The translations under genes were made by a program, and so were the position numbers. Of a stretch of DNA of 64,000 nt, positions 1,553-21,676 are shown piece after piece. Each line of letters begins with the position of its first letter. Positions within the stretch are counted from its first letter, which is position 1. The notes beneath the pieces are model-generated. The model had not been told where the DNA came from and did not search any database. It saw only the letters and a program-made list of their open reading frames with translations. The DNA comes from Erysipelothrix rhusiopathiae (lineage in GTDB: Bacteria > Bacillota_I > Bacilli_A > Erysipelotrichales > Erysipelotrichaceae): assembly GCF_900637845.1 (NCBI RefSeq), contig NZ_LR134439.1, forward strand, positions 310,001 to 374,000. The letters are read 5' to 3'.

Positions 1553-1590
1553 GAATTGATGCAACTCAATTCTCAGGTATGGAGGTTATT

Positions 1591-3144
1591 ATGCAAGAAT
1601 TACTAAATGTAGAGAATGTATTGAAAGTTTACCCCAATGGTGTTGTCGCAAATAAAGATGTAAATTTGAAATTGATGACCAACGAAATTCATGCCTTAAT
1701 TGGAGAAAATGGCGCTGGTAAATCAACGTTGATGAAGATTCTGTTTGGGATGGAACGTCCAGATAGTGGTACGATAACACTTAATGGAGAAGCGGTTACG
1801 ATTGAAAACTCTAAGAAAGCAATCGATTTAGGGATCGGGATGGTTCACCAACATTTTATGTTGGTTGAATCACTCACGATTGCTGAAAATATTGTCCTTG
1901 GCGATGAGCCAACACGTGGAAAATTATTTCTCGATGAAAAAGAGATGCTTAGCCTTGCACGTGAATATAATGAAAAATATCAGTTTAATATCGATATTAC
2001 AAAAAAAGTCCAGGATGTATCCGTGGGTGTTAAACAAAAAACAGAAATCCTAAAAGCGTTGGTTCGTGGTGCCAAGATTTTAATTCTTGATGAACCAACT
2101 GCAGTGTTAACCCCACAGGAAACAACGGAGTTATTCCAACAATTAAAGATGTTAAAAAAACAAGGACACACCATAGTATTTATCTCGCATAAATTGAATG
2201 AAATTATAGAATTATGTGATCGTGTAACTATTATGCGTCACGGACGTACAGTTGTATCAAAAAATATCTGTGATACGAGTGTTGAAGATATTTCGAGAAA
2301 TATGGTTGGACGTGATGTTGTATTGAAAATTGAAAAAAAACCAATGGAACGTGGTGATGTCTGTTTATCTGCACGAAATTTAGTTGCAATCAATGATATC
2401 GGGAAACGCGTTGTGGATCATGTCTCACTGGATGTTTACGCCGGACAAATTCTGGGAGTTGCGGGTGTTGAAGGCAATGGTCAATCTGAATTGTCGGATA
2501 TCTTGAGTGGAATGACAACGATGCAAGAGGGTTCCTTTACAATTAATGGTAAAGAACCTGAAAACTATACACCCAAAGCAATTCGCGATTGTGGATTAAG
2601 TATTATCTCAGAAGACCGTCTCAAGACAGGAACCGCACCCCACATGTCGATTGTAGATAATATGTTTACCAATCGAATTGAGTCGTTTACCAAAAAAGGG
2701 AATATTATTCTTGATCGTCATAAAATGAACCATCACGCTCAAAAATTGGTTAAAGAGTTTGAAATTGTCACTGACTCAATCAATCGTTCAATTTTAATGT
2801 TATCGGGTGGAAATATGCAAAAAGTTGTAGCTGCTCGTGAATTGTTAAATGAATCCAAGGTTATTATTGCTAACCAGCCAACGCGTGGAATTGACGCGGG
2901 AGCCTCTGAACTTTTACGTCGTAAGATTATTGAATTAAGGGATCAAGGAAAAGCGATTATTCTTATCTCTGCGGATTTAAATGAAATATTAGAGCTGAGT
3001 GATAGTGTCGCAGTTATGTATTCGGGAAAACTCAATGCATATTTTGAGGATACAAAAACACTAACTGAAGAAGAACTCGGTTATTATATGTTAGGGGTAA
3101 AAACACAACAAAACCATGGAGGGAAAAACTATGCAGAAAGTTAA
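1591..3144 (+). CDS. nucleoside ABC transporter, tandem ATP-binding protein (NupO/RbsA-like)
   Basis: This 517-residue protein has two fused ABC cassettes, as in RbsA and NupO. The first has a full Walker A (GENGAGKST, residues 38-46) and Walker B ILILDEPT. The second has a degenerate Walker A (GVEGNGQSE), a good signature (LSGGNMQKV) and a Walker B in which NQPTRG replaces DEPT, typical of the sugar/nucleoside import subfamily. I place the start at 1591, because the upstream in-frame ATG at 1579 lies in the GGAGG ribosome site. The 3' end overlaps the permease gene by 14 bp, so translation is probably coupled. It energises import of the BMP protein's ligand. Confidence 0.93.
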   Translation: MQELLNVENVLKVYPNGVVANKDVNLKLMTNEIHALIGENGAGKSTLMKILFGMERPDSGTITLNGEAVTIENSKKAIDLGIGMVHQHFMLVESLTIAENIVLGDEPTRGKLFLDEKEMLSLAREYNEKYQFNIDITKKVQDVSVGVKQKTEILKALVRGAKILILDEPTAVLTPQETTELFQQLKMLKKQGHTIVFISHKLNEIIELCDRVTIMRHGRTVVSKNICDTSVEDISRNMVGRDVVLKIEKKPMERGDVCLSARNLVAINDIGKRVVDHVSLDVYAGQILGVAGVEGNGQSELSDILSGMTTMQEGSFTINGKEPENYTPKAIRDCGLSIISEDRLKTGTAPHMSIVDNMFTNRIESFTKKGNIILDRHKMNHHAQKLVKEFEIVTDSINRSILMLSGGNMQKVVAARELLNESKVIIANQPTRGIDAGASELLRRKIIELRDQGKAIILISADLNEILELSDSVAVMYSGKLNAYFEDTKTLTEEELGYYMLGVKTQQNHGGKNYAES

Positions 3145-4228
3145 AATGAAAAGAACAAAAATGGATAAATTTCTGTATAAGTTTGAAATTGTAAGACTTT
3201 TGATTGCTGTTGTTATTGCATTTGGTGTCTCGTTTGGAATTCTAGCAATGTTTACACCCCATCCGGTGCAAGCAATTGTTGATTTAATTATTGGTCCACT
3301 AACATCTGTACGTCGCTTTAGTACGGTTATTGAAAAAGCAATTCCGCTTACATTTGCAGGATTAGCAGTGAGTGTTATGTTTAGAGCAAATCAGTTTAAC
3401 TTAGCAGCTGAAGGCGCACTTTATTTTGGTTCTTTGGTTGCAGCAACGATTGCAATATTTATGGGTGGTCATCCTATCTTTGTAACGATCGTAGCAATAT
3501 TAAGTGCTGGGGTGGTCGGCAGTATTATAACCGCAATTCCAGGATATCTAAAAGTTAAGTGGAATGTCAGTGAATTGGTGGTATCCATCATGTTAAATAC
3601 GATTATTTTATATTTTGGGACGTATCTCTTCAACCATTATATTCGAGATATTAATTCTGCCTATGCAGCATCCTATCCATTCCGTGACGGCGTCGGTTTG
3701 CCCGTACTCTTAAAAAATACACGCCTTCATCTAGGAATCGTGATTGTCGCAATCTTCGTGATTGCGGTTAACTTCTTTATTAATAAAACAAAATGGGGCT
3801 ATAAAATTACAGTTACTGGTAATAATGAAGAATTTGCGAAAAGTGTAGGAATGAATACACCACGAATTATCATGTTAGCTCAACTTGTTGGAGGATTTGT
3901 TGCAGGTATTGGTGGTGGCGTTGAAATGCTTGGTTTGTATACGCGTTTTCAATGGATGGCGTTGCCTGGATTTGGTTTCGATGGTGTTGTTTTAAATATT
4001 ATTGCTAAAGGCAATCCGAAATTCATTCCACTAGCAGCAATCTTTGTTTCCTACATCCGTATTGGTGCTGACTATATGTATCGTCAATCCGGTGTAGCAC
4101 CTGAAATTGTCGCAATTATTGAAGGAATTTTAATCATTCTTATTGCCGCAAACGCATTCCTTGCTAAATGGCGTCATAAGATGACCGTTGATATTTCTAC
4201 ACGCGAATTAAATAAGGAGGTTGCATAA
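3131..4228 (+). CDS. nucleoside ABC transporter permease (NupP-like)
   Basis: This is a 365-residue integral membrane permease of the BPD_transp_2 family, with about eight to ten hydrophobic helices and a charged N-terminus. The core has the family-type segments RANQFNLAAEGALYFG and GWGY-like KWGYKITVTGNNEEFAKSVG. The start at 3131 follows a GGAGGG ribosome site; an earlier in-frame ATG at 3116 lies inside that site. The stop overlaps the next start as TAATG. It forms one half of the membrane channel with the following permease. Confidence 0.92.
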   Translation: MQKVKMKRTKMDKFLYKFEIVRLLIAVVIAFGVSFGILAMFTPHPVQAIVDLIIGPLTSVRRFSTVIEKAIPLTFAGLAVSVMFRANQFNLAAEGALYFGSLVAATIAIFMGGHPIFVTIVAILSAGVVGSIITAIPGYLKVKWNVSELVVSIMLNTIILYFGTYLFNHYIRDINSAYAASYPFRDGVGLPVLLKNTRLHLGIVIVAIFVIAVNFFINKTKWGYKITVTGNNEEFAKSVGMNTPRIIMLAQLVGGFVAGIGGGVEMLGLYTRFQWMALPGFGFDGVVLNIIAKGNPKFIPLAAIFVSYIRIGADYMYRQSGVAPEIVAIIEGILIILIAANAFLAKWRHKMTVDISTRELNKEVA

Positions 4229-5196
4229 TGGAATACATTCAAATGATCTTTACCACTTCATTTTACGATACCATTATTCGCGTTGCGACTCCGTTATTGC
4301 TTGCGACTATGGGAGCGGTTATCACTTCAAATGCTGGAATTACAAATATTGGACTTGAAGGAGTAATGCTTACATCTGCACTTGTCGCTGTATTATCCAG
4401 TGCATTTGGGTTTGGACCTTGGTTTGGTCTCCTGATTGCTGTCATTACGGGAATCTTAGCATCATTATTTATTGGATATGTTTCACTGAAACTCAAAACG
4501 GACAGTGCATTAACGTTTATTACTTTTAATGCCATGGCTTCCGGTGGAACCATCTTCTTTATGTATTCGATCACAGGCGATAAGGGCACAACCAGTTCCT
4601 TAAATTCAGGGGTACTACCAAATATAACTATCCCCATCATTAAGGATATCCCTATATTGAATACGATATTTTCGGGACATAATGTGGTTGCGTATATTGC
4701 GGTGATTGCTATTATTGCAGTATGGATTTTGCTTTATAAAACACCAATGGGACTTCGAATACGTGCAGCAGGAGAGGCACCGCAATCTTTGGAGTCCGTA
4801 GGTCAAAGTGTTTTTAAAACAAAAATGATTGCACTTGCCATTAGTGGAATTTTAGGTGGAATCGCCGGTGCTTACATGTCAATGGGCTATGTAAGTTGGT
4901 TTTCGAAAGACATGCTAGCAGGTCGTGGATTTATTGCGATGGCAGCTGATGCAATGGGGAAATCAACACCTCTTGGCGCAAGCTTAGCGGCAATTCTCTT
5001 TGCTTTCGCAGAAGCATGGTCTTACGCTTTACAATTAACCTCCATTCCGACGGAATTGGTTCAAATGATTCCTTATGTTGTGTCTGTTGTTGGACTGGTA
5101 GTATTTAGTATTCGTGTTAAACGCGAAAATGAAAAGAAAAAAATGAGATTAGCACTTGAAGGGAGCATTAAGCATGAAACGCAAAATAATTATTGA
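4228..5196 (+). CDS. nucleoside ABC transporter permease (NupQ-like)
   Basis: This is the second permease of the importer, 322 aa, same BPD_transp_2 family. It has multiple hydrophobic helices and the family-type segments TNIGLEGVMLTSA near the N-terminus and GLRIRAAGEAPQSLESVG in the cytoplasmic loop. It starts one base into the previous stop (TAATG) with AAGGAGG upstream. The 3' end overlaps the nucleoside hydrolase gene by 23 bp, consistent with a single translationally coupled operon. Confidence 0.92.
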   Translation: MEYIQMIFTTSFYDTIIRVATPLLLATMGAVITSNAGITNIGLEGVMLTSALVAVLSSAFGFGPWFGLLIAVITGILASLFIGYVSLKLKTDSALTFITFNAMASGGTIFFMYSITGDKGTTSSLNSGVLPNITIPIIKDIPILNTIFSGHNVVAYIAVIAIIAVWILLYKTPMGLRIRAAGEAPQSLESVGQSVFKTKMIALAISGILGGIAGAYMSMGYVSWFSKDMLAGRGFIAMAADAMGKSTPLGASLAAILFAFAEAWSYALQLTSIPTELVQMIPYVVSVVGLVVFSIRVKRENEKKKMRLALEGSIKHETQNNY

Positions 5197-6121
5197 CTGT
5201 GATCCAGGTCACGATGATGCAATGGCCATTATGTGGGCACTTGCATCACCTGAACTAGATATATTAGGTATTACTACGGTAGCAGGAAATCAAACGTTAA
5301 GTAAGGTTACAGAAAACACACTTCGTATTCTAACCTTATTAGGACATCATGAGATTCCGGTTGCGGTCGGTATGAGCCAACCCCTTGTACGTAATTTGGA
5401 AATTGGTGGTGAATTAGTACATGGGGATTCGGGACTTGAAGGACCCGAACTTCCTGAACGTGGTTTTGATCCAATTAAAGAGGATGCTGTTTCATTTATA
5501 ATTCGTACTCTTGAAGCAAGCAAGGAGCCAATTACATTGGTACCTCTAGGACCTTTAACGAATATCGCATTGGTTTTACGAATGAGACCTGATTTAATGG
5601 ACAAGATAGAATTGATCGCGTTGATGGGTGGTGGAACGGTTGGAAACTATACGCCAGCTGCCGAATATAATATCTGGGCAGACGCTGAAGCTGCAAAGGT
5701 CGTATTCAACAGTGAAATTGAGATTCTAATGGCGGGTTTAGATGTTACTCAAAAAGCTTACATAACACGCGAAGAAAATGAAATTTTGAGAAAACAAGGA
5801 AATAAAGGATCTATATTTGCTGCAGAGTTAATTGATTACTTCAGTAAATATCATTATGAGGTTGAAGGGTTCCCAGGCTGTACACTACATGATCCGACTG
5901 TAATTGGTGCACTTGTTCACCCTGAAATGTTTGAATCCATTCAATGCAATGTAGATGTTGAAACACAAGGAACGCTAACCTACGGAATGACTGTAGTGGA
6001 TACGATTAACTATCAAGAAAAAATCTTTGGCGTAAAACGCCCCCAAAATGTCAAATTCTTAAAGGGTGTCAACCGAGAAGTCTACGTTGAAAACTTCTTT
6101 AAGGCAATGAGTCGATTATGA
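5174..6121 (+). CDS. inosine/uridine-preferring nucleoside hydrolase
   Basis: This 315-residue protein belongs to the IUNH family, which cleaves the N-glycosidic bond of ribonucleosides to give base and ribose. The Ca-binding motif DCDPGHDD is at residues 8-15, followed by GPLTNIAL, the MGGG and EYNIWADAEAA segments, and the conserved active-site LHDP near residue 238. I chose the ATG at 5174, after GGGAG, over the TTG at 5156. Its place downstream of the importer suggests cytoplasmic hydrolysis of imported nucleosides, and the ribose could be used by the kinase at the operon start. Base specificity (purine, pyrimidine or broad) cannot be read from the sequence. Confidence 0.93.
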   Translation: MKRKIIIDCDPGHDDAMAIMWALASPELDILGITTVAGNQTLSKVTENTLRILTLLGHHEIPVAVGMSQPLVRNLEIGGELVHGDSGLEGPELPERGFDPIKEDAVSFIIRTLEASKEPITLVPLGPLTNIALVLRMRPDLMDKIELIALMGGGTVGNYTPAAEYNIWADAEAAKVVFNSEIEILMAGLDVTQKAYITREENEILRKQGNKGSIFAAELIDYFSKYHYEVEGFPGCTLHDPTVIGALVHPEMFESIQCNVDVETQGTLTYGMTVVDTINYQEKIFGVKRPQNVKFLKGVNREVYVENFFKAMSRL

Positions 6122-7756: not shown

Positions 7757-8521
7757 TTAACCTCTAAGAATAGAATGATTCTCAAAAAAGACTGGTGCTA
7801 AAGTTAGAGTCCCCGCATGGTGGGACTCTAATAAAAAATAAGCTGGGATTTGTGACTCGCGGTATTGTACCGGAGACATGAATCCCAGTTTTGCTTGAAT
7901 TCGAGTGTTGTTGTGATGTTTAGTGTATACACGATGTATAGAGCGAATTTTGATTATTTGAATTGTGCACTCACTCATAATCTTTGGGAGTTGATTGGCT
8001 GTATTTGATACAAATTCAATATCTTGAATTGTTCTAAGTGTATAAGCGATAATTTGGCCGTCATATAAATCCATAATCGACGACAAGTAAAAGTTAGTTT
8101 CTCCCCAAGGAAGATCGGTAATATCTGTGGATAGCTTTTCTAATGGACGCGTTGCTTTGAAATTTCGATTCATAACATTATTCGCGACAAGAGCTTCTTT
8201 TCCTCTATAGAGATTTTGACGTTTTTGCTTAGCGCGACACTGAAGATTGAAACGTTGCATAATTCTTTGAAGCGTGTTCTTTCCAATAGGATATCCATCT
8301 CTTTTAAGTATCCCTGTAATCATGCGATAGCCGTAGTTGAAGGTTGTATCATTACAGAGTTTAATGATTATCTCTTCATTTTCAGTAAGACATGTTTCTA
8401 CTGATCTTTGTTTCCAACGATAATAAGTTGATTTTGAAATGTTGAAGAGCTCTCGTATTGATTTGACTGAAATGATACTTTTAAATTCATCGACAAGTTC
8501 TAGGAATACTTCTCGTACCAC
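7757..8521 (-). pseudogene. IS3-family transposase orfB, internally deleted
   Basis: The frame is open for 254 aa and begins with the HTH_21-like start (INSKSTYYRW-type segment SKSTYYRWKQ) and a GYRMITGILKRDGY motif. The rve domain keeps the first catalytic Asp (STDITDLPWG) and the second region (SSIMDLYDGQIIAY). The stretch that should hold HSDQGSQY and the catalytic Glu is missing, and the frame jumps from residue 180 to the terminal GFMSPVQYRE segment. This is an in-frame deletion of about 60-70 residues, so the transposase is inactive. Confidence 0.85.
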
Positions 8522-8835
8522 TTCCTTTCCATCTTCTTGTGCTTTTTTAGTATCTTTACTTGCTGATCCAAAATTTCATTACGCATCATCAAAGATGCTT
8601 CGGTGCAAGATCCTTCGGGGCCCAATCCATTACTATATTGTTTCCCAATGGGTTGTGAAAGTCTATGATGTTCACCATCTCGATATATACTTGTGACTCA
8701 CTTTTGATATCAAGTAATTTTTGAATTTCTTTAACACTATACCCTTCTTGTCTCAGCCTAATTGCTTCCAATTTAACCTCAAGAGGATAGACACTTTTTT
8801 TGTGGAGACCCATTAACAGTGGTCAGTTTCCAAAT
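7785..8835 (-). mobile_element. IS3-family insertion sequence remnant (IS150-like)
   Basis: The remnant contains decayed orfA and orfB on the minus strand. The left end has a 10-bp hairpin, TTAGAGTCCC with GGGACTCTAA at 7804-7831, in the region where IS3-family right inverted repeats usually lie. The boundaries are approximate, because only a short ACTG match between the two ends is visible. Both orfs have lost internal segments, so the copy cannot transpose by itself. It sits directly after the nucleoside operon and before a surface-protein gene. Confidence 0.75.
8589..8813 (-). pseudogene. IS3-family transposase orfA fragment
   Basis: Seventy-four codons begin with a helix-turn-helix typical of IS3 OrfA (LEAIRLRQEGYSVKEIQKLL). 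After about residue 42 the sequence no longer resembles the family and the frame ends early. The last part of orfA, with the leucine zipper, is only seen in another frame towards 8521. It is the 5' gene of the same dead element. Confidence 0.75.
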
Positions 8836-9042
8836 TTGTTATGATTTTCTGTCTATAAAATAATCGTCGTGAATAAGGTGTTTTTTAGCTCTGAAGTTAT
8901 TGGATTTAATGAAATATGCTTGAAAAATTGTGATATAAATGAAAATAAAATTTAGTTAAAAAAGATTTGTGTTATGGTAGTGATAAATAAGGAGCGTGAT
9001 ATTTAACTGTAGGATTCTCAATAATCGTAGAATTATAAGTTA

Positions 9043-9067
9043 TTACCCCTTTTAATAAATGGGGTAA
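9043..9067 (+). other. 5'-UTR hairpin ahead of the LRR protein gene
   Basis: TTACCCC (9043-9049) pairs with GGGGTAA (9061-9067) across an 11-base AT-rich loop, followed by AAATTTTAT. It lies about 55 bases before the ribosome site of the LRR gene. It could be a weak terminator or a leader structure; there is no run of T long enough to be sure. Confidence 0.4.
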
Positions 9068-9131
9068 AAATTTTATATCGATGTTTATTATTGCTTCAGA
9101 AGTCATGTTAGTAGTTGATGAGGAGAAAATT

Positions 9132-10781
9132 ATGAAAAAAAGAAATAGTTTGTTTTTACTTACGCTTTCGTTTTGTCTGTTAATTTCACCAATTTTCGCT
9201 TTTGCGGATGAGACTAAACCTATCAATGAGTGGTTTAAAAGACCCTCTATTGCTCAATTTGTTGCTGATAAATTATCGTTAACAACGTCAGATCTTGTTT
9301 CACAATCACAGTTAGATGAGATTAAGACATTTAATCCAGCTGTTGGTGAATTAGTTGATATGGAGTCTTTTCTTGAGATTGCAAGTCTTAGAAAACTAGA
9401 GAATATTTATCTACGGAAACAAAGTCTAAAGAATTTTGAAGGAGTAGAAAATTTCAAGGAGCTCGATAGTCTTATGGTGGTCGAATCGCCAATTGAGAGC
9501 ATATCAGGAATTGAGCAATTACCCGTGCTAACTTTGTTGTCTATTGGATACAATTACTCACCTGTTTTTATAGAGAATCCAAGTGCTCTAGCTCCAATTG
9601 ATGGAGTGCCATCGTTAGTAAATATCGACTTAAGAATGTTAGATCTGACAAATGATCATTTAAGTAAGCTAAAAAACAATAATCAAAACTTGAGAAATAT
9701 AAATTTACATGGAAATAATCTTACGAGTTTTAAAGGTCTAGATGTATTCCCGAATCTAAAAAATCTTAGAGTTTCACAAAATAATCTAAAAAAAATGGAT
9801 GGTATAGAATCTTTAAAGCAATTAGAAATGCTTGATATAAATAATGAAAACTTTGATAAAAGTTATGGTAATGGAATCGTTGATTCGTCGCTTTTTACTA
9901 TGTGTGATGAGAGTTGCCTTTATTATGACATGGACCGTCATAAAGTAATATTAGAGATGGAAAAAGGAATCGATGATAAATATTATATTGATTTAAATCA
10001 GTTCATAGTTCCAAGTGTAAGTAATAATGCAGTCAAGAAGTTCCATTTTAAGCTTACCAATATTGCTGCTGGTAAATATGACGAGGGTAAAAATATCGTA
10101 GAGTTTACTACTGAAGAAATTGAAAATATTAATTTTTCCGAAGATTTTCTAGAAGTAACTCTAAAAGATCATAATAATCAGAGTTATGGTAGAATTTTTA
10201 TTTATAGTGATAAACCTAATGTGAAAAGAGATGTATTCAAAGTTGTGTATCGAGATGGTATTCAAGATGAACACAGCTTTAAAGACCAGGTGTATGAGGG
10301 TATTGAAGAAGGGAGTCTTACCCCTAAATATGTTGGAACTCCACAAAGAGAGGGTTATCGCTTTAAGGGTTGGAGTCCGGAAGTATCCGAAACTGTTACA
10401 GAAAATACTGTATATGTAGCACAGTGGGAAAAGAATATTGAAGTGAAAAAGACATATGAAGTAGTATACCGAGATGGTATTCAAGATGAAGACAGTTTTA
10501 AAGATCAAGTGTATGGAGGTATTGAAGAAGGAAGTCTAACGCCTGAATATGTCGGAACTCCACAAAGAAAGGGTTATCGCTTTAAGGGTTGGAGTCCTAA
10601 AGTGTCCGAAACTGTTACAGAAAATACTGTATATGTAGCACAGTGGGAGTTAAGCGTAAGTATTGCGAATCCGACAGCACTTCCTCCAACAGGTTTATCA
10701 AATAACAATTTATTTTTAATTGGAATTGGATTAGTGCTCACATCGTTAGCTCCATTAAGTATCAGAAAAAATCGAAATTGA
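9132..10781 (+). CDS. internalin-like LRR surface protein with two InlB-type B repeats and LPPTG anchor
   Basis: This is a 549-residue secreted, wall-anchored protein. A Sec signal (residues 1-27, cut near AFA-DE) leads to a leucine-rich repeat region of about residues 60-270, with units such as LRNINLHGNNLTSF and LKNLRVSQNNLKKM. Two repeats of about 60 aa follow (YRDGIQDE...FKGWSPEV...YVAQWE), matching the Listeria-Bacteroides InlB B-repeat family. The sorting signal is LPPTGL, a hydrophobic helix and a basic tail RKNRN. ATG 9132 follows GAGGAG; in-frame codons further upstream have no ribosome site. The family often binds host cells. Here a role in adhesion is inferred only. Confidence 0.9.
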   Translation: MKKRNSLFLLTLSFCLLISPIFAFADETKPINEWFKRPSIAQFVADKLSLTTSDLVSQSQLDEIKTFNPAVGELVDMESFLEIASLRKLENIYLRKQSLKNFEGVENFKELDSLMVVESPIESISGIEQLPVLTLLSIGYNYSPVFIENPSALAPIDGVPSLVNIDLRMLDLTNDHLSKLKNNNQNLRNINLHGNNLTSFKGLDVFPNLKNLRVSQNNLKKMDGIESLKQLEMLDINNENFDKSYGNGIVDSSLFTMCDESCLYYDMDRHKVILEMEKGIDDKYYIDLNQFIVPSVSNNAVKKFHFKLTNIAAGKYDEGKNIVEFTTEEIENINFSEDFLEVTLKDHNNQSYGRIFIYSDKPNVKRDVFKVVYRDGIQDEHSFKDQVYEGIEEGSLTPKYVGTPQREGYRFKGWSPEVSETVTENTVYVAQWEKNIEVKKTYEVVYRDGIQDEDSFKDQVYGGIEEGSLTPEYVGTPQRKGYRFKGWSPKVSETVTENTVYVAQWELSVSIANPTALPPTGLSNNNLFLIGIGLVLTSLAPLSIRKNRN

Positions 10782-10796
10782 ACTCTTAAATCAAAG

Positions 10797-10828
10797 GTAG
10801 ACAAGTAATCAATCTTGTCTACTTTTTT
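10797..10828 (+). terminator. rho-independent terminator after the LRR gene
   Basis: GTAGACAAG pairs with CTTGTCTAC (9 bp, loop TAATCAAT) and is followed by six T. It lies 16 bases after the stop codon. Confidence 0.92.
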
Positions 10829-11135
10829 CAAAAAAAAAGGTAATACATAATATTGCTTCGTGTGTCGGCAAAAAAATATAGGTACATGGGTTTAAAGATT
10901 TTGATAGAATACAGAGAATCTTTTTTTATTTTTTATATTGAGGTTTATTCGTGAAAGATTAAGGAGAGTATAGAGATGCTTTCTACTATACGAGGATAGC
11001 GCTCAAAACTAGATTCAACTCATAGATCATATTCTTTTTAGAAATAGACTGATTGTAAATGATCGTAAAGAAAAGATAAAAATTAATTTAAGCCCATGAA
11101 ACTTATGATGAAATTTTAGATTGAAAGAGGTAGTT

Positions 11136-11396
11136 ATGAAAGAAAATATATTTTATAAAATCAATTTTTATTTTAAAAAATGGTTTGCAATTAAATTGTC
11201 TAAGAGTATTTTTAAAAGTTTTGATTGGCTATTTTATTTACAAGGTAGTGAATTCAGAGAAGATGTATCGCCAAAATATCAAGGACAGTTTTGTGCGACA
11301 GAGTTATACTTTGATATACAAAAGCGAATAATAAAACACATTCTAAGCGCTGTAGAACGTCTATCAAAAATTAACATTGCTATTAGTTGTGAGTAG
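11136..11396 (+). CDS. short hypothetical protein
   Basis: This open frame of 86 codons is basic and aromatic-rich at its N-terminus and has no family I recognise. ATG 11136 follows AAGAGG. It ends 10 bases before the ATG of the DUF421 gene, so the two could be co-transcribed. There is no clear membrane segment or signal peptide. DUF421 genes often pair with DUF3290 genes, but this product does not look like DUF3290. It could be a gene remnant. Confidence 0.4.
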   Translation: MKENIFYKINFYFKKWFAIKLSKSIFKSFDWLFYLQGSEFREDVSPKYQGQFCATELYFDIQKRIIKHILSAVERLSKINIAISCE

Positions 11397-11406
11397 AATA
11401 CAAATC

Positions 11407-12024
11407 ATGTTTTATTTCGAACTGTTTTTAAAGCTTATTGTAAGTTTTTTTTCTGTCCTTGTTTTTTCAAAATTACTTGGTAAAAGAAATATTTCACCAA
11501 CCAGCCCAAGTGATCACATAAACAACTATGTACTCGGTGGACTCGTTGGTGGTGTTATATATAATTCAGAAATAGGCGTTTTTGACGTTATATTAGTTTT
11601 TGTACTTTGGGGAAGCTTCATTAAAATTCTTGATTTTATTAAAACTTGGGTAAAAAAAATTCGAAAAATTATTGATGGAGAACCAATATTACTTTATTAT
11701 AACGATAATTTTATAATAACTAATCTTAAGAAATCAAATTTGTCTGTCGCAGATTTTTATTACAGCATGCGAATGAAGGGTATTCAAACAACCTCAAATA
11801 TTTCCAAAGCAGAATTATTACCAAATGGACAGATTGTTTTTATAGAATCGAAGGTAGATGAACTCAATTATTTGGTAATTTCAGATGGTAAGTTTAATAA
11901 AAATGAAGTTGAACTGGCAGGCCTAAAGGAAGAATTTATACTAAATGATATTGGTATTCAAGATGTGAAGGAAATAAGCTCTTGCGAGTATACTAACGGT
12001 ACATATCGTTATACCAAATATTGA
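11407..12024 (+). CDS. DUF421 (YetF-like) membrane protein
   Basis: This 205-residue protein matches the YetF/YdfS (DUF421) layout. Two or three N-terminal helices contain the family-type SKLLGKRNISPTSPSD, followed by LGGLVGGVIYNSEIG. A cytoplasmic domain with DGEPILLYYNDNF, and then a small beta domain, complete it. I prefer ATG 11407 to the upstream TTG at 11377, since the membrane segment starts right there. The function of the family is not well established; some members are linked to stress or spore properties. A strong terminator follows. Confidence 0.85.
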   Translation: MFYFELFLKLIVSFFSVLVFSKLLGKRNISPTSPSDHINNYVLGGLVGGVIYNSEIGVFDVILVFVLWGSFIKILDFIKTWVKKIRKIIDGEPILLYYNDNFIITNLKKSNLSVADFYYSMRMKGIQTTSNISKAELLPNGQIVFIESKVDELNYLVISDGKFNKNEVELAGLKEEFILNDIGIQDVKEISSCEYTNGTYRYTKY

Positions 12025-12116
12025 TTATTATACGTTCAATCTGTATGGCATGTTTTATAATGAGGTTTTTTGTAAATTAGTGTTGGTGAGATTACCCGAC
12101 ATATTTAGAGTCAAAA

Positions 12117-12148
12117 CCATCATCATAGGAATATGATGATGGTTTTTT
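12117..12148 (+). terminator. rho-independent terminator after the DUF421 gene
   Basis: CCATCATCAT (12117-12126) pairs perfectly with ATGATGATGG (12133-12142) and is followed by six T. Confidence 0.92.
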
Positions 12149-12189
12149 ATATCTTAGTGTACCCGTATGGTTGTAGTGGTCAAACTTTT

Positions 12190-13110
12190 TTATAACTCAG
12201 GTGGATAAATAGATTTAAGTATTTCTAATTTCATTTGGAATTCTATAATCATTTGATGCATGTGGTCTAATCTAGTCATACCATCTAAACAAATATTATG
12301 ATATAGCATTTTCAAGTTGTTTGTCACTATTAAATTGGTAACGGTTGATAAGCACAAATTTCAAAGTTCTAAAGAATCGCACTATTCCTACATTATCATA
12401 AGGGCATCCGCCTTTGCTCATACTTTGAGTCACTTCATTTTCTACACAAAATTCTGTGAAATTGTATGAAGCAAATTGACTTTCTTGATCACTCTGAAGA
12501 CTTAAATCCTTTGGTTGTTCATTTTAGGTTAATAATGCTTCGGTCTGAGAGGTCTAGAATACTGCAGTTGTATTGAGACTTTACATTCAAACCTTGGATA
12601 TATGTGAAATCAGTACACTAAACTGTTTTCTGTTGCTCAATATTTAAGTCTTGAAGCGATTGGGAAAAAGTTCGTGCTTTGTTCCTTCGACGTAGAGTAG
12701 ATGATTCTTAGCCGGTACGCAGTAGGTCTGAAGCTCTTGATTCATAAATTTGTGAACTGTGGTTTTGCTAAGTTTAATCCCTTGCCGCCTGTTGAATGAA
12801 AAAATCTTTAATTCTATCTTAAACCAATTTCTTCCTTTGATAATAATCACTGCTGATATTATTGAGATAGTTATATTAATCATCGGCATCAACACCACAC
12901 TGCTAAAATAATTAACATAAGCCAAAGTGGCACTTATACTGATTAATGAATTCATGTATTACTTGCCTATTTTCTTCGCGGAATTAGATAGTTTTTGTTT
13001 GAGTTTACGGTTCTCTTCCATCAATAAGAGTTCGCTTTTTGCTTCAGGAGTTGTTGGAAATTTTTTTGGTAATCACGAATCGAGTTGTTGCATGTTCACT
13101 ATACCATTAA
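12190..13110 (-). pseudogene. IS3-family transposase remnant (orfA and orfB, many frameshifts)
   Basis: Reading the minus strand in shifting frames recovers IS3 pieces in order. An OrfA tail (MEENRKLKQKLSNS, near 13020-12960) is followed by an OrfB start (FNRRQGIKLSKTTVHKFMNQ, near 12790). Near 12580-12330 come degraded rve pieces, including LQSDQESQFASYNFTEFC, SMSKGGCPYDN and RFFRTLKFVLINRY. Stops and shifts lie between all of them, so no protein can be made. It differs in sequence from the IS3 copies at 16.8 kb and 47.2 kb. The edges are approximate. Confidence 0.75.
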
Positions 13111-13367
13111 ACGCTCTGTTTCATTTGAGATAAAAACATTGCTTTAAGTTTCTAAAAGCAGTTTGTGAACTTAGGATGAATGAAAACGAAATCATAGTGA
13201 TATCGCAGCAGATAAGTCGATATATTTTATGTGTTTGATAGAATTGGTTTGTAATGTCATGTTTTTCAGTGATTTAGGTTGCTGTATTAAAGGAGGGGTT
13301 ACTTATAAAGTTTATGAATATGCAATAAAGAATAACTTAATCTTATAGAGTACATTAAGGAGGAACA

Positions 13368-16300
13368 ATGAAAAAAACGTTAAAAAAATTTTTACATATA
13401 GCTTTTTCTTTGACACTAATTTTAAGTAATGCTTTTATTACAAATATCAATGCTTCGACAGTGAGCGATGGTGATATTATTACTCTAACGGACCCAAACT
13501 TTAATAAATCCAACGGGTATAATACTAATATAGAGAAATATATGACTATAGAAGTTGCAGAAATAAATGAGAATCAATCTAACATTATATTATCTATAAA
13601 TCGAGAAAACGGTATTTTGGCGTATACGCCCTATAATAGAAGTACTAAAACTTATGGTGAAACTGTAGAGTTCTCGAACACCAGTCTCAATGTTGAACGT
13701 AAAGTCTATTCTAGAACCAATCTTGAAGTTGATCACAAGGCAGGTACGTACAAATATACTCCTGATCAGAACAGAACTGGAAACATCTATAACGGTAAAT
13801 TTAGATACGATGGTTCCAACATTGCTTATACATATGGAAAAGGGTTTGCAGGAATACCAAAATTTGTGAATGTAACAGCTAAATTTATGAGTGATGGAAA
13901 AGAAATCAAGCCAGCTGTGACTAAAAAAGGAATCCAATCACAGTCCTACATTTTTTTAGAAAACTATCCAATCGAGGGATATTCACAAACAACTGTTAGC
14001 GGAGTCAAATCTGGGAAAGTTGGAAAATCAGACATTACAGTGATTTATAATTATGTTGAAGACTACGATGCAGCCAAACATGATATTGTGATTGATCCAG
14101 CTAGTTCAGGAGACACGAAAATAATTGGAACTGGATTTCCAGGTGATACAATTGTATTCACGGATTCTTCGGGAGAAAAAATCGGTGAAGGTGTCGTTGA
14201 TTCAAATGGAGATTACGACATTACATTAGATAGACCTTTAATTGGTGACGAAATTATAACAGGTCAACCTATTACAAATGGCATTAAAGGTAATAAAGAA
14301 AATGTTGTTGTTTATAATCGTGAGAAGCATAAAGTAACGATTGAACAACCAGTAGAAAATGATATTATTGTAAAAGGTAAGGGAATCGCGGGTGATTTAT
14401 TAATTCTAAAAGATGGCAATGGAATAAATATTGGCGAAACAACTGTCAATGATGATGGGTCTTACACTATTAATGTATCTCGTCCTCTAATTGGCAATGA
14501 GGAAATCAAAGTTATCCCTTATACGAATGATATAGAGGGTATGGAGACGAAATCTACCGTTCTCGATAAAGATGCACATAAACCAACGGTGAATAAGCCA
14601 GGCTCGGGTGAAACCAATGTGACTGGAAAAGGAACCCCAGGTGATGAAATCATCATTACTGATGGTAAAGGTAAAGAAATCGGAAAAGGTACGGTTGATT
14701 CGGAAGGTAACTTTGATGTGAAAACAGATCGAGCATTAGAACCTAATGAAGTGATTACAATCACACCCCAAACGGATGGGAAAGCAGGGACACCAGCAGA
14801 AGAAACCGTTCTCGATAAAGATGCCCATAAACCAACGGTGAATAAGCCAGGCTCGGGTGAAACCAATGTGACTGGAAAAGGAACACCGGGTGATGAAATC
14901 ATCATTACTGATGGTAAAGGTAAAGAAATCGGAAAAGGTACGGTTGATTCGGAAGGTAACTTTGATGTGAAAACAGATCGACCATTAGAACCTAATGAAG
15001 TGATTACAATCACACCCCAAACGGATGGGAAAGCAGGGACACCAGCAGAAGAAACCGTTCTCGATAAAGATGCCCATAAACCAACGGTGAATAAGCCAGG
15101 CTCGGGTGAAACCAATGTGACTGGAAAAGGAACCCCAGGTGATGAAATCATCATTACTGATGGTAAAGGTAAAGAAATCGGAAAAGGTACGGTTGATTCG
15201 GAAGGTAACTTTGATGTGAAAACAGATCGACCATTAGAACCTAATGAAGTGATTACGATCACACCCCAAACAGATGGGAAAGCGGGAACACCAACAGAAG
15301 AAACCGTTCTCGATAAAGATGCCCATAAACCAACGGTGAATAAGCCAGGCTCGGGTGAAACCAATGTGACTGGAAAAGGAACCCCAGGTGATGAAATCAT
15401 CATTACTGATGGTAAAGGTAAAGAAATCGGAAAAGGTACGGTTGATTCGGAAGGTAACTTTGATGTGAAAACAGATCGAGCATTAGAACCTAATGAAGTG
15501 ATTACAATCACACCCCAAACGGATGGGAAAGCAGGGACACCAACAGAAGAAACCGTTCTCGATAAAGATGCCCATAAACCAGCGGTGAATAAGCCAGGCT
15601 CGGGTGAAACCAATGTGACTGGAAAAGGAACCCCAGGTGATGAAATCATCATTACTGATGGTAAAGGTAAAGAAATCGGAAAAGGTACGGTTGATTCGGA
15701 AGGTAACTTTGATGTGAAAACAGATCGACCATTAGAACCTAATGAAGTGATTACAATCACACCCCAAACGGATGGGAAAGCAGGGACACCAACAGAAGAA
15801 ACCGTTCTCGATAAAGATGCCCATAAACCAACGGTGAATAAGCCAGGCTCGGGTGAAACCAATGTGACTGGAAAAGGAACACCGGGTGATGAAATCATCA
15901 TTACTGATGGTAAAGGTAAAGAAATCGGAAAAGGTACGGTTGATTCGGAAGGTAACTTTGATGTGAAAACAGATCGACCATTAGAACCTAATGAAGTGAT
16001 TACAATCACACCCCAAACGGATGGGAAAGCAGGGACACCGACAAGTCTTAAAGTCTTTGACAAATATAGTCATAAGCCAGATCTTAACCCAATGAAAGAT
16101 GGCGATGAATTAGTTTCTGGAACCGGAGTGGCTGGTGATGTAGTTATTATAATTGATTCAAAAGGTAATGAAATCGGAAAAGGTAGAGTTAATATACTTG
16201 GGAAATTTTCAATCAAATTAAATCGTAAACTGAGCGGTGGAGAAGAAATCTCGGCTATTCCTTATACAGATGGTATGAGAGGAACTATGATTACTAAATC

Positions 16301-16442
16301 CGTAATGCATCAAAGTGATAGCAAAAATGTTCTTCCGCCGGCCGGAATAAGTAATAATTACTCATTCTTACTTTTAGGAGTATTACAAATAGTTTTTGGA
16401 ATTAAAATATATTTGAAGAGAATGTGTGAAAAAGAATTATAA
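13368..16442 (+). CDS. large repeat surface protein, Ig-like repeats, LPPAG anchor
   Basis: This is a 1024-residue secreted protein. A signal peptide (about residues 1-30, NINAS) leads to an N-terminal domain and a MucBP-like segment (about residues 165-235, ending SDITVIYNYVED). Nine tandem bacterial Ig-like units of about 83 aa follow: two degenerate units, six near-identical units starting KDAHKPTVNKPGSGETN, and one last degenerate unit. The anchor is LPPAGI, a hydrophobic helix and KRMCEKEL, which is a weak basic tail. ATG 13368 follows AAGGAGGAA. The repeats form a stalk in comparable proteins. Adhesion or a spacer role is inferred. Confidence 0.88.
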   Translation: MKKTLKKFLHIAFSLTLILSNAFITNINASTVSDGDIITLTDPNFNKSNGYNTNIEKYMTIEVAEINENQSNIILSINRENGILAYTPYNRSTKTYGETVEFSNTSLNVERKVYSRTNLEVDHKAGTYKYTPDQNRTGNIYNGKFRYDGSNIAYTYGKGFAGIPKFVNVTAKFMSDGKEIKPAVTKKGIQSQSYIFLENYPIEGYSQTTVSGVKSGKVGKSDITVIYNYVEDYDAAKHDIVIDPASSGDTKIIGTGFPGDTIVFTDSSGEKIGEGVVDSNGDYDITLDRPLIGDEIITGQPITNGIKGNKENVVVYNREKHKVTIEQPVENDIIVKGKGIAGDLLILKDGNGINIGETTVNDDGSYTINVSRPLIGNEEIKVIPYTNDIEGMETKSTVLDKDAHKPTVNKPGSGETNVTGKGTPGDEIIITDGKGKEIGKGTVDSEGNFDVKTDRALEPNEVITITPQTDGKAGTPAEETVLDKDAHKPTVNKPGSGETNVTGKGTPGDEIIITDGKGKEIGKGTVDSEGNFDVKTDRPLEPNEVITITPQTDGKAGTPAEETVLDKDAHKPTVNKPGSGETNVTGKGTPGDEIIITDGKGKEIGKGTVDSEGNFDVKTDRPLEPNEVITITPQTDGKAGTPTEETVLDKDAHKPTVNKPGSGETNVTGKGTPGDEIIITDGKGKEIGKGTVDSEGNFDVKTDRALEPNEVITITPQTDGKAGTPTEETVLDKDAHKPAVNKPGSGETNVTGKGTPGDEIIITDGKGKEIGKGTVDSEGNFDVKTDRPLEPNEVITITPQTDGKAGTPTEETVLDKDAHKPTVNKPGSGETNVTGKGTPGDEIIITDGKGKEIGKGTVDSEGNFDVKTDRPLEPNEVITITPQTDGKAGTPTSLKVFDKYSHKPDLNPMKDGDELVSGTGVAGDVVIIIDSKGNEIGKGRVNILGKFSIKLNRKLSGGEEISAIPYTDGMRGTMITKSVMHQSDSKNVLPPAGISNNYSFLLLGVLQIVFGIKIYLKRMCEKEL
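14562..16055 (+). repeat. six tandem 249-bp repeats inside the surface-protein gene
   Basis: Units begin at 14562, 14811, 15060, 15309, 15558 and 15807, each at CTCGATAAAGATG, with an exact 249-bp (83-codon) period. The units differ only at scattered bases: GCACAT/GCCCAT, CCCCAGGT/CACCGGGT, GCATTAG/CCATTAG, GCAGAA/ACAGAA, and one ACG/GCG. Such identity at silent sites shows recent amplification or gene conversion. Copy number is likely to vary between strains and may be collapsed by short-read assembly. Confidence 0.97.
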
Positions 16443-16600
16443 TTAGACCTAAATTTTAAACAAGTGCTCATTGAGAAACCATAGATTGGATCTCATAAGC
16501 TTAGAGACACTTGGAAAACGCGGAGAAATTAGCGCATCCTTAATTCAATGATCTTTAATTTACAATGTAGATAAACCTACCTCGAGAGTTATTAAAGCTT

Positions 16601-16631
16601 CACCCCGTTTATAATAACGGGGTGTTTTTTT
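16601..16631 (+). terminator. rho-independent terminator downstream of the repeat surface protein
   Basis: CACCCCGTT pairs with AACGGGGTG around a six-base loop and is followed by seven T. It lies about 160 bases after the stop codon. Confidence 0.88.
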
Positions 16632-16794
16632 GTTATCGGTTTAGAAAACCACACGCTATTCGTGTGAGCGTGTGAGAACGGAACTAGGTCAGTTCCTACC
16701 TATGCATATAGAGTTGTAACAGAAAAAACCCTCAGTGTTATTGTAAATGTGACTGACAATCGCAAATATAAACAAGGAGGTTGTTACTTGACAC

Positions 16795-17414
16795 CAAGAG
16801 AGAGTTGATGAATAAACTGAGCATGTTATTAACGTTTTCGTTGATAGTTAAAAGATTTATGGAGCACGTAAAATAAAGACAGTACTAGTCCAAGAAATAT
16901 TTGTCTTATAACGCAGACGAGTATCGGGAATTTGTTGTTCGTAAACAGTTTGAAGTAAGAGTCAGCGACCTAACCTATGTAATGGATGGACATAGCTAGA
17001 ATTACACTTGCACCACTATTGATTTATATATTCGTGAGATTGTGGGACACAGTTGTTGACAAAAGAAAAATAGCAAATTGTTTCATAAGGCGTTTGCAAA
17101 GATAAATTCAAGTTTAAGATCGATTTAATACTTTCATTCATATTGAGGAAGTGAGTTTGGTAATTACCTGATTGACGATATCTGTTCAACAGTTGGTGAT
17201 TAAGTCGTAAGGTTAACTACATTTGACAATACCATCGCTGAGACAAAATTCAAGACAAAAAAAGGAGGTTGACAAAAAGCACATTTTCTCAATACTTGAG
17301 GAACTGGATTATGAGTTTGGATAATTGTTGAGTGGTTTAATTCCAAATTACTTCATGCATAGAACACCATTAGAATAGAAGCAACATTCTATCACTAATT
17401 TGTATATATCTGTT
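16795..17414 (+). pseudogene. IS3-family orfB remnant, same element type as the copy at 47-48 kb
   Basis: Broken frames give VDE-TEHVINVFVDS, IYGARKIK, VSDLTYVMDGHS, IREIVGHSC and LIDDICSTVG, interrupted by stops and shifts. The same segments in the same order appear on the minus strand at 47200-47960 (for example YGTRKIK and REIVGYSCWQKKN). Even the 3' end ACACCATTAGAAT-AGCAACATTCTAT is shared. The 5' part with orfA is not found, so this copy is truncated as well as dead. Confidence 0.78.
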
Positions 17415-17451
17415 GCAATTTTAAGGCGAAATTTAAACCCGAAAAAATAGA

Positions 17452-18018
17452 ATGTTTTATAAGAGAAGAAAACGTAAAAAGAGAATGAGTGGAATGATGA
17501 ATCACTTGAGATGGAAATTGGAAGAGAAAACGGTACTTCCAATTAGCCTAAGACCTAAATATATTGAGGAACGAAACGAGATTGGTCAACTCGAAATCGA
17601 CTCCATCATCGGTAAGAAACATGAAACTGCAGCGATTATATCTATTGTGGACCGCTGCTCAAGAATGATCTGGCTTATTAAAGTAAAATATCCAAATTAT
17701 TATTACACATTAAACAAAATTCGAAAATTTATTGAAGAAAATAAAATAACAATCAAATCGATAACAGTAGATAATGGACTTGAATTTAAAACATTAGGGA
17801 TTACAGTTAAGCGGTTGTACGTAAAGATATATAAGTGTAACTCGTATTGTTCTTTTCAAAGTGGAACTAATAAACGCGAGAATGCAATCGCACGATGGTT
17901 TATACTAAAAGGAAAATCGATGTCTAATATTTGCTTCAAAATTGCCTCAATGACGCGACAAATATTTGAGGTCAAAAAGACTTCACAGCATTATTTTTTC
18001 TTTCTGAATCGATTTTGA
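17452..18018 (+). pseudogene. IS30-family transposase fragment
   Basis: The 188-codon frame shows the IS30 catalytic core: GQLEIDSIIGKK (first acidic residue), IVDRCSRMIW, VDNGLEFK (second Asp) and NKRENAIARW (Glu). The N-terminal helix-turn-helix domain is missing and the C-terminus runs into unrelated sequence. The protein is about half the usual length of 320-350 aa, so it should be inactive. It directly abuts the IS3 remnant, so one element may have landed in the other. The 3' end overlaps the convergent small secreted protein gene by 28 bp. Confidence 0.8.
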
Positions 18019-18266
18019 TTTGCAATGAGTATCAAACCAATTACAAAACAAGCGATGGCACCATAGAGGGGTGCATCGGGGAGTCCATAGGGTGGTAGCG
18101 TTTTAACACCGTTACTGTGTGCTGGGAGTTCATGATCGCTTTGAGTAGAACGGTAATTTTGACTTGTAACAAAAACTTGTGAAGAGCGATTGTTCATCGG
18201 ACTTGGGGAAATAGAGATTGTAAAAATAGAAACCATGCTTAGAATCGAAAAAAATGTTTGTTTCAT
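17991..18266 (-). CDS. small secreted protein with sortase-like tail (LPPYG)
   Basis: This encodes a 91-residue protein with a signal peptide (MKQTFFSILSMVSIFTISIS), about 35 polar residues, then LPPYGLPDAP, a 17-residue hydrophobic helix and a basic tail NRFRKKK. The layout is that of a sortase substrate, but the motif reads LPPYG where the Thr or Ala of LPxTG/LPPAG is expected. The start is set by GGAGG seven bases before ATG 18266; an upstream in-frame ATG at 18281 has no ribosome site. It could be a tiny wall protein, a membrane-held peptide, or the remnant of a larger adhesin that lost its middle. Confidence 0.65.
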   Translation of the reverse strand: MKQTFFSILSMVSIFTISISPSPMNNRSSQVFVTSQNYRSTQSDHELPAHSNGVKTLPPYGLPDAPLYGAIACFVIGLILIANQNRFRKKK

Positions 18267-18624
18267 CGTAGACCTCCACAATAAAAGGGGATTATTAGTA
18301 CCTTATATAGGTATCATACCAACGATTCTATAAAGAATGAAACGAAATACCCTGAAAGACTTAATTGATTTAGAAGAAAATATGCCATATTTGTAATGTT
18401 TTTCTAACAATTATCATGAATGTTTCACCTAATTGTATTAATGGTGATTTAAAGGCTCTATATGTTTGATAAGGTGTTTCTATTAGCCTATTTAAATACT
18501 TGTGTTATATTTATTTCACAAATATAACGAATAATAATGATAGGATACTTTAAAGTCTATATCATTTTCATCACGTGTACGATGTATGATTTTATGAAAA
18601 ATTATTTAGAAAAGAGGAGACACT
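18267..18624. other. divergent intergenic region
   Basis: This AT-rich spacer lies between the small secreted protein (minus) and the adhesin pseudogene (plus). It should carry promoters for both, but I see no clear pair of -35 and -10 boxes and no coding sequence. Confidence 0.5.
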
Positions 18625-21600
18625 ATGTTATTTACGAAGAACCGTAAAATGCGACCGGTGAGTATCGTCGCATTAGTATTCGTACTAATTGTATCGCAAT
18701 TGACAATTTCTGCTAATGTACCTGAGGAGGAGCTTCCCCACGAAGCGATGCTAACTGCGGTGATTGATTCCAAACAATCGAATGTCGTGATCGAATCACC
18801 TACGAAACCTTACACAGCGAGGCAGCATTGACATTGAATTTCAGTGATTCAGAGTGGATTAAAATTAAGGATGAATTTAATCCACTCATGTTTAATGTGC
18901 CCGACGAAGCTACCCTAGTCCATGTTGAGGATCCAGTACATACGGATAAGGACTTAAAGGCTAATACCCTTCAAGATTTAACTCAAATTAAGGTAAAAGA
19001 AGAAACGAATGGATTCAGTTTAGATTTTAAAGATGTAGATGTTAATCCACAATCGTTTAAAATGGTGTATGAAATTCTTATTAATGAAGACTTAAAGATG
19101 GTTGATGAAAAAAATATCCTGCTGTAGGAGCCGTTTTAGATCAATTAAGAACTGAAATCGCTTCGTTAGAATCACAAACAAATTATGTAAATGATGAAGA
19201 TGAAAAGAAGCCTCCAAATGAAGTGAGCGTGCCTAAGGAAAATTAAATTGATGAAATCTTGCCAGTATCGAATGAAACAAAGCCGGTACTAACAGGTGAA
19301 ATTGAGTTGAATCTTGAAGGCGAAACACACGCTAAACTTCGGTATAAGTGTCAATTAATTAGTGAAAAATTCCTGTGAAAATGGAAAGTTATACGAATCA
19401 ATCAACAGATTTTAGTGTTGATATTTTCACAGATGACAAAGAATTTGTAGAAATCAGCTATAAAGTTAAATTTTATCAAGACTCACTTGATAAAATAACA
19501 GCAGATTCCACTATTTTTGATTTCCATTATTTAGAAAATGGAGAACGTGCTGTATATAAATATGAACATGATTTTCCAGAAGAAATAACTCTTTTTACTG
19601 CGACCCAGGAACAATTCATAATCAGTGATAAATTAGAGGAATACAGTACATCGAAGTTTGTACGTAAAAACCCACATCAAATGTCGGAGCATTTAAACTT
19701 GTTGTTGATGAATTACTTATATCAAATGAAGAGGCAGGTATTGAAAATCAGTATCGTTTCCAAAATTTAATTTCATACCAAATTAACAGTTATATTTCTG
19801 ATCAAATTAAGAAAGGGACAGATTTAGATACGATTAAAGAAAATTTAAAAGAAGGATTTGAATTTGCTACCGATGAGTACATTTTTAATCAATATTCTTT
19901 TAAGCAAATGGATAAATCAGAACTTGATAAACTCGAAAATTATCCACTTGTAATCAATGACTTTATTGCTTCAGAAAATAAAATTGAAGAAACGTTCCCG
20001 GTTCAGCCAATCGGTGGCAGTGATCACAAACTGAAGGAAGCTGGGTTTAGTGAGATTAATGGAGGCTTAGAATTAAAATGGGAAGGGATTTTAAATTCAA
20101 GTCGTAACCATACGATGAACAACTTAAATCTTGCGTTCATAATTCCACAAATTGTGAAAACATCTGGTCTTGGAAATTGGGATGTTAAGACTTAAGTAGA
20201 CATTAGCAACTTTAATGTTAAGAATGATGGTACATTAGAACCTTGTAATCAATATCCTTCAGTTTCAGAAGAATTTAAGAATACATCAACTCAAGGAATT
20301 GAAGCTATTGAAATTCCGCTGGTTGAAAAAATATTATTGTAAAATATTTTGTAACGCAAACGTATGTCAATGATAATCTGCAATTAGAAATTGAAGGGAA
20401 TCAGTTGGGAAGACTCACAGCGTCACTCGACAACAAGCAGCTTCTACGTTCAGCAGATAATAAAAAAGTATATCCAAATTCAATCATCATAAAAGGTGAG
20501 AAGCGTGAGGAGGCAATGCCAACCAGTTTAATTTGGGATATTCGATATAATAGTGAATTGGTTCGTAAAGAAAATGATGGGTTTAATTTTAGAATAAATA
20601 AAGATACCATTAAAGCTTACCATGCAGACCAAGAAGATAAGTATATCGAGATTCCAGCAACCTATGACACAATGAAGTTTAACCATAGCGTAATCGTTGA
20701 TAGCAAAACGATTGAAAAGGAGGGTCGTTTTGACGTGGTCTGGAATGATGAAGGTACAGATGCACAATTTCGTCTTAAGTCGAAAGAAACGTTATCGGAA
20801 CCCGTAATGTTTCGTATTATTCTAGAAAACAAAATCAATGAGAAATATCAATCTGGTAAAACGATTCGTGATGAATTAATGGATTCGCCTAGTCTTAAGT
20901 TTGAAGGTGACGCAGAAGTGAAATCTTTTACAAATGAACAGGAAATCACAGGCACTGAGCCTACAGAAGCTGAATTTAAGGAACGCGAAGCAACAAATTA
21001 TTTAGTATTGTTGGATAAAAAACCTATTATGATTGACTATCGAACCAAAGAAGTCATTTGGGGTGCCTCCATCAATACAACAACCGCTCACTGTATCGGA
21101 CTACCAGGACTTTCCTATATAGATAAATTGGGTGAAGGACTTGAATTTGAACCGATGGATAGCGAGCATAAATTGCTTTTGTTTAAAATTGATCCAGCAG
21201 AGAACTCATACCGTGAGTATGAACAATTCCGCCATGAAGTTCAAAAAATCATGGATGATTCAGCACTAGAATCAGCAAACATTTTTGCTGCTGTTACTGA
21301 ATTACTAACGAAACCTTTAGTTGAAGAAGGTGAGTCGGACAAAACTTACGGTCAAGTAGCACAGTTACTCGATGATACATTAGTGGGATATGCTTCTCTT
21401 GAAGATTGAGAATCGTTAAGTACAAAAAAATATATTGTTTCTCGACCGAAAGCTGATCCAACTTATGCTGATAAGATCAAAGGTATCGTTCTTAATGGTG
21501 TTGGTAATGATGTACATCAATCAGATATAAACAAAAATGATTTTACGAAAGACGCTGATATACGTGTTGAATTTGTTGATTCTGACAAAGCAGTCGGAAA

Positions 21601-21676
21601 TGGAGAAGAAGACGATAACACTTATTTTCTTTTATCAAATCTCAACCGCACCACCCAAGGTGCGGTTGAGATTTGA
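18625..21676 (+). pseudogene. decayed cell-surface adhesin (Cna/MSCRAMM-like)
   Basis: A good ribosome site (AGAGGAGA) and a signal peptide start the gene at 18625. The frame then breaks near 18800, 19120, 19245, 19370, 19735, 20190, 20340 and 21407 by shifts and stops. Joined pieces give a secreted protein of roughly 1000 residues. The segment at 20990-21160 (MIDYRTKEVIWGASIN...LGEGLEFE) resembles collagen-adhesin B-type domains of MSCRAMM proteins. No LPxTG tail remains before the terminator hairpin. The longest intact piece is 20405-21409 (334 codons). At least seven lesions mean it is not one sequencing error. Confidence 0.8.

Follow-up and report, generated by a model that had tools for sequence, protein, structure and literature searches.

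A tandem array of near-identical Big_6 immunoglobulin-like domains in a surface-protein gene of Erysipelothrix rhusiopathiae

Results

The surface-protein gene and its repeat array

The window analyzed here comprises 64,000 nucleotides of the Erysipelothrix rhusiopathiae genome (GCF_900637845.1; contig NZ_LR134439.1, positions 310,001 to 374,000 of the forward strand), and all positions given below refer to this window. It contains a 1024-codon gene whose product combines a signal-peptide-like start, an N-terminal region, a MucBP-like domain, nine Big_6 domains, and an LPPAG sorting-like tail. The sequence AAGGAGGAACA is located directly before the ATG of the gene. The features of the locus are as follows.

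7803-18607, strand not assigned: stretch holding the gene, missing in the genus member G001, where the flanks 7802 and 18608 lie only 1.15 kb apart
13368-16442, plus strand: 1024-codon surface-protein gene, single open frame (Big_6, E value of 5.6e-92, nine stretches)
13368-13868, plus strand: signal-peptide-like start and N-terminal region, candidate functional head (sequence reading)
13869-14054, plus strand: MucBP-like domain, residues 168-229 (PF06458, under cut-off)
14076-14324, plus strand: diverged upstream Big_6 domain 1 (44% identity to the core unit; 65-70% of silent sites differ)
14325-14573, plus strand: diverged upstream Big_6 domain 2 (39% identity to the core unit; 72-76% of silent sites differ)
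14556-16043, plus strand: tandem array, 6.0 x 249 bp, of near-identical Big_6 units (Tandem Repeats Finder and unit comparison)
16068-16316, plus strand: diverged downstream Big_6 domain (44% identity to the core unit; 64-68% of silent sites differ)
16317-16439, plus strand: C-terminal sorting-like tail with LPPAG, a hydrophobic stretch, and a basic end (read in translation)
16601-16624, plus strand: terminator-like hairpin downstream of the gene, a 9-pair stem followed by a T run

The Big_6 family (PF17936) matched the protein over its gathering cut-off (302.5 bits versus 27.6) in nine stretches, while other Pfam matches (Nodulin_C, PUA, etc.) had no individually significant stretch and were treated as repeat-driven noise. 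No Pfam family exceeded its cut-off within the first 167 residues, and the single-sequence structure model of the N-terminal part was unusable (pLDDT of 30). As to ligand binding, Pfam recognized no such domain in the N-terminal part beyond a sub-threshold MucBP match (PF06458), which reached an E value of 0.0052 (18.0 bits) when the N-terminal part was searched and of 0.00025 (22.1 bits) alone, the cut-off being 23 bits. The N-terminal part may constitute a binding head. At the opposite end, LPPAG takes the place of LPXTG as the anchor motif, and the tail gave no match to the Pfam anchor model at an E value of 0.001. Still, the tail resembles sortase substrates in its layout, and the genome encodes one sortase, which would presumably anchor it. 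The terminator-like hairpin is weak, as three such sites were found versus 3.0 expected, and neither promoter-like nor terminator-like sites were in excess over shuffled sequences.

The original prediction had placed six near-identical 249-bp repeats with a fixed period at positions 14562-16055. Tandem Repeats Finder (TRF) bore this out, reporting 6.0 copies with a period of 249 at 14556-16043 (98% matches, 0% indels, score of 2871); its length and identity rule out a chance or low-complexity repeat. The head-to-tail copies correspond to 83 codons each and are in frame inside the 1024-codon gene. On the left, the match at lag 249 runs from position 14556, the first mismatch leftward being 14555, and on the right, unit 6 diverges from the other units from unit offset 221 onward. 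We read a long minus-strand frame over the array (14519-16063) as a shadow of the repeats, not as a gene candidate. The array is single-copy in its own 1.77-Mb single-contig genome, where the DNA search otherwise matched 60 bp of the downstream domain and nothing else.

Silent sites within the array and in the flanking domains

Any two of units 1-5 differ at 2-7 of 249 bases, whereas comparisons of these with unit 6 give 15-20 differences, mostly in the tail of unit 6. Over the first 74 codons of each unit, units 1-6 compared in all 15 pairings have 72-74 of 74 residues in common and show 0-7 silent differences at approximately 54 sites (dS of 0-0.142, Nei-Gojobori counts). The expectation that the units agree at almost all silent sites thus held for most pairs but not for unit 3, in which four silent changes present in no other unit (offsets 185, 200, 212, and 215) are clustered within 31 bp. 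When four third-position changes were placed at random, they were as tightly clustered in 0.7% of trials, although this test was devised post hoc.

All nine domains share one 249-bp spacing (starts at 14076, 14325, 14574, and on to 16068), yet only the middle six are alike. The three flanking domains had been described as diverged units of the same domain, and they are indeed all Big_6, with 39-44% protein identity to the unit (27-34 of 74 residues matching); compared in register, 64-76% of their silent sites differ from those of the units, which equals saturation. The G+C content of the array is 43.6% versus approximately 35% in the flanking domains. Its third-position G+C content of 0.289, however, lies within the range of 18 genes of the window (0.20-0.35), and the composition of the array therefore follows its amino acids. 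We rejected codon or compositional bias as the cause of the silent identity, since the third-position value is ordinary for the window, and the same value gives no support to a recently imported array. A search for a near source of the array found none, the best units in other genera being approximately 58-60% identical.

Variant sharing among the units

Eleven sites, at offsets 0-222, vary among the units, and three pairs of these sites occur in all four combinations (62 x 222, 65 x 222, and 159 x 222). The pairs 62 x 222 and 65 x 222 cannot be formed without unit 6, where the sequence departs from the array at 221-222, whereas 159 x 222 holds in units 1-4 alone, without the array edge. Furthermore, the silent variants at 62 and 65 are common to the non-adjacent units 2 and 6, and the variant at 159 is common to units 1 and 4. 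The longest exact shared stretches measure 185, 172, 219, 247, and 93 bp for sequences 249, 498, 747, 996, and 1245 bp apart, respectively, and the peak values at distances of three and four units suggest that blocks of several units were duplicated together. The variant sharing and the four-combination pair are best explained by exchange or by block duplication between units. The evidence for exchange is good but not overwhelming, since a single recurrent mutation could produce the only robust pair. Near-identity at silent sites next to saturated flanks, this pair, and the variants common to non-adjacent units support the earlier suggestion of recent expansion or ongoing exchange.

Fold of the unit

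A structure model of two units (alignment of 15 rows, including four from the window) was confident, with a mean pLDDT of 96.1 and a pTM of 0.79. Its best solved match was the C region of Bap (7dm0; E value of 9.7e-13, 30% identity). Over both domains, the TM-score to 7dm0 was 0.47 with an rmsd of 8, a low value that we read as a different angle between domains. A profile search of solved chains yielded three matches at E values of up to 0.1, each of which bears the name "Biofilm-associated surface protein."

Genomic setting

G001, which among the genus members has the best-matching flanking gene (88% protein identity), is without the 10.8-kb stretch that holds the array gene. Transposase-like remnants are located near both ends of this stretch, one in a minus-strand open reading frame (ORF) at 7757-8521 (HTH_21 and rve_2 over cut-off) and the other in a plus-strand ORF at 17452-18018 (rve match under cut-off). 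The stretch also carries a YetF-type gene and encodes an LPPTG protein in which Listeria-Bacteroides repeats occur together with leucine-rich-repeat-like ones (the latter under cut-off); this protein has a smaller in-frame repeat of its own at 10240-10648 (1.9 copies of 219 bp, 90%, Listeria-Bacteroides repeat type). Outside the stretch, window positions 18608-21628 align at 68% to part of a G001 gene for a 2595-residue surface protein with an LPTTG tail but contain several shorter frames, and this region looks like a decayed surface-protein gene.

The N-terminal residues 1-402 matched only their own genome among 13 genomes of the genus. Because these residues are confined to one genome and G001 is without the stretch, the gene appears to be accessory, as far as the two comparisons go. 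Big_6 itself is present in three of the 13 genus genomes, one of which (G006) has a single weak match, while another (G007) encodes a different surface protein, ending in LPSTG, that contains a Big_6 array of 3.0 copies at the same 249-bp period (98%; L042, 2909-3653). Within a draw of 392 genomes of the phylum, the unit was found in one, its own, a result that describes the sample and is not evidence of absence.

Arrays and copy number in homologues

A search of the genome_contigs set with the full protein gave 24 stretches matching by pattern and no relative. Phages gave no match, and the viral_contigs set gave 503 such stretches, again with no relative. Among 72,556 plasmid records, 12 matched, all at less than 60% identity; the best included Vagococcus fluvialis (L039, 58%), Staphylococcus aureus (50%), and Enterococcus faecalis (L041, 40%). 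Nine loci matched in named genomes, of which six were examined and L049, L050, and L052 were left out. Of 11 related loci analyzed with TRF, seven (L039, L040, L041, L042, L044, L048, and L051) contain arrays whose period lies between 249 and 273 bp, and four of these have at least 97% matches (L040, L041, L042, and L048); L043 contains a single unit, and TRF found no array in L045, L046, and L047. Near-identical arrays are thus present in several distinct proteins with Big_6 and more diverged arrays in others.

The arrays of V. fluvialis L039, S. aureus L040, and E. faecalis L041 resemble the one described here in consisting of Big_6 units but have a period of 261-264 bp instead of 249, and L039 and L040 end in an LPQTG tail, in contrast to LPPAG here. 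S. aureus L040 also has a KxYKxGKxW signal, and among the alignments listed, its matches to the N-terminal 402 residues of the E. rhusiopathiae protein fall at residues 194-401, which is almost entirely Big_6. On the E. faecalis plasmid LR962555 (L041, positions 1558-5406), 14.6 copies of a 264-bp unit with 100% matches were found in an unannotated record, matched by the Big_6 unit. The Vagococcus array gene (L039, 3473-4981) lies directly after an IS1216 transposase; its translation starts inside a repeat, and it looks cut at the 5' end.

Two plasmids of camel S. aureus from Kenya (L040 and L043) share the same gene neighborhood, with flanking alignments of 3327 and 5745 bp that are 99.97% and 99.91% identical. 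The gene, however, measures 5151 bp with 14.8 units in one plasmid and 1497 bp with one unit in the other, so that the two lengths differ by exactly 14 x 261 bp (the unit is approximately 50% identical to the array unit here). Such a difference is as predicted by unequal exchange, although an assembly collapse of the shorter gene could also explain it.

Discussion

The array appears to belong to an already known kind, that of Periscope Proteins and fibrillar adhesins. Periscope Proteins, in which the gain and loss of repeats alters how far the protein projects, are defined in PMC8201768, which describes a screen for tandem repeats of more than 50 residues with at least 80% identity and includes a Big_6 example in print, S. 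aureus SAP077A_019, with varying repeat number. Compared directly with this repeat rule, the present unit has 83 residues and 72-74 of 74 residues in agreement. As presented there, SasG, Rib, Sgo_0707, and SAP077A_019 share with our protein long, highly identical tandem repeats and the surface-protein layout, and the last also shares Big_6; these proteins differ from ours in having LPXTG motifs and repeat-number variation, whereas the E. rhusiopathiae protein has LPPAG, a candidate head only, and six units from one genome.

The C-repeats of staphylococcal Bap (PDB 7dm0, 7c7u, and 6m3a) are the best match in fold, with an Ig-like unit of 86 residues versus 83 here, but are only approximately 30% identical to our unit. 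PMC7785521 reports that the Bap C-repeats are identical at the nucleotide level and that their number varies within a species and during infection. The A/B N-terminal regions with EF-hands that the same paper ascribes to Bap were not recognized here by Pfam (E values of up to 0.001 for the protein and of up to 1 for the N-terminal part). A partial match to Ig_like_BLP2/Blp2 (NF040520) scored 168.4 bits, far below the curated cut-off of 750 bits. Erysipelothrix surface proteins are listed in PMC7083082, PMC9637936, and PMC4105556, including an Ig-like-domain protein, NBX27_07335 (PMC9637936), and CwpB (1013 residues, PMC7083082). In the parts of the Erysipelothrix literature covered, on LPXTG and tandem-repeat proteins, sortase, Ig-like repeats, and repeat number, we found no description of such an array.

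We consider it highly probable that the array forms the stalk of a cell-wall-anchored, fibrillar adhesin-like surface protein whose units are homogenized, gained, and lost by exchange. Each 249-bp unit encodes one 83-residue Big_6 immunoglobulin-like domain. In the mechanism we propose, copies out of register would recombine homologously, by unequal crossing-over or by gene conversion and perhaps together with replication slippage, and whole units would thereby be duplicated, deleted, and homogenized, which would explain their near-identity. Since the period equals 83 codons, the frame would be kept at every gain or loss, and the stalk would only lengthen or shorten. Homologous recombination is the likely mechanism named in PMC9704523.

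Several other accounts of the array have to be weighed. Protein-level selection alone, keeping the units alike without any exchange between DNA copies, would fit the confinement of amino-acid differences in units 1-5 to three sites (offsets 12, 159, and 222); it is nevertheless strongly disfavored, to the point of being scarcely credible, because the silent sites are also nearly identical next to saturated neighboring domains and because the ordinary third-position G+C content excludes extreme codon bias as the reason. A single past burst of duplication, followed by stable copy number and by ordinary mutations as the source of the unit differences, is a rather unlikely alternative: with up to seven silent differences between units and few amino-acid changes, the array is not brand new. 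Under such a history, though, exchange, block duplication, or recurrent mutation would still be needed to account for the four combinations at 159 x 222 and for the variants at 62 and 65 that units 2 and 6 have in common, and the homologous S. aureus array differs in copy number. We regard it as quite improbable that the assembly arrived at six units in error, by collapsing a longer array or expanding a shorter one; a 1.5-kb array is beyond the span of short reads, yet the units carry distinct variants between well-defined ends, and the genome is one contig with 99.98% completeness.

Two further readings concern the source of the variation and its purpose. The array may be kept alike partly by outside DNA, the unit 3 cluster having been imported from the array of another strain; the cluster is without a remaining donor in its own genome, which makes it a possible imported tract, and we hold this addition to be unlikely, if worth keeping in mind. 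It is more doubtful still that the array is a device of antigenic variation, selected for immune escape rather than reach. There is a precedent in the alpha C protein of group B Streptococcus, for which PMC9704523 summarizes an effect of repeat-number change on antibody recognition. However, nothing in the present sequence bears on immunity, and with units alike at 72-74 of 74 residues, gain or loss would alter the amount and distance of an epitope but not its type. Moreover, Bap variants work alike in biofilm formation according to PMC7785521.

For the stalk reading that we favor, the original suggestion that copy number could switch stalk length is plausible by analogy, as copy-number variation is seen in homologues, namely, in the S. 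aureus plasmids and in the systems described in PMC8201768 and PMC7785521. By the same analogy, copy number would be expected to vary within the host species. Stalk length would then presumably be under selection, although the negligible effect of Bap repeat number on biofilm capacity, as reported in PMC7785521, counts against length being important in Bap. An effect of copy number on antigenicity, also suggested originally, may exist.

The finding probably extends a known device, the variable-length stalk built of identical Ig-like repeats, to Erysipelothrix and does not define a new class of system. If outside DNA does contribute to the array, the stalk of this island gene would exchange both length and units between strains. 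The array also offers a ready length marker for following strains, by a PCR product that would change in steps of 249 bp.
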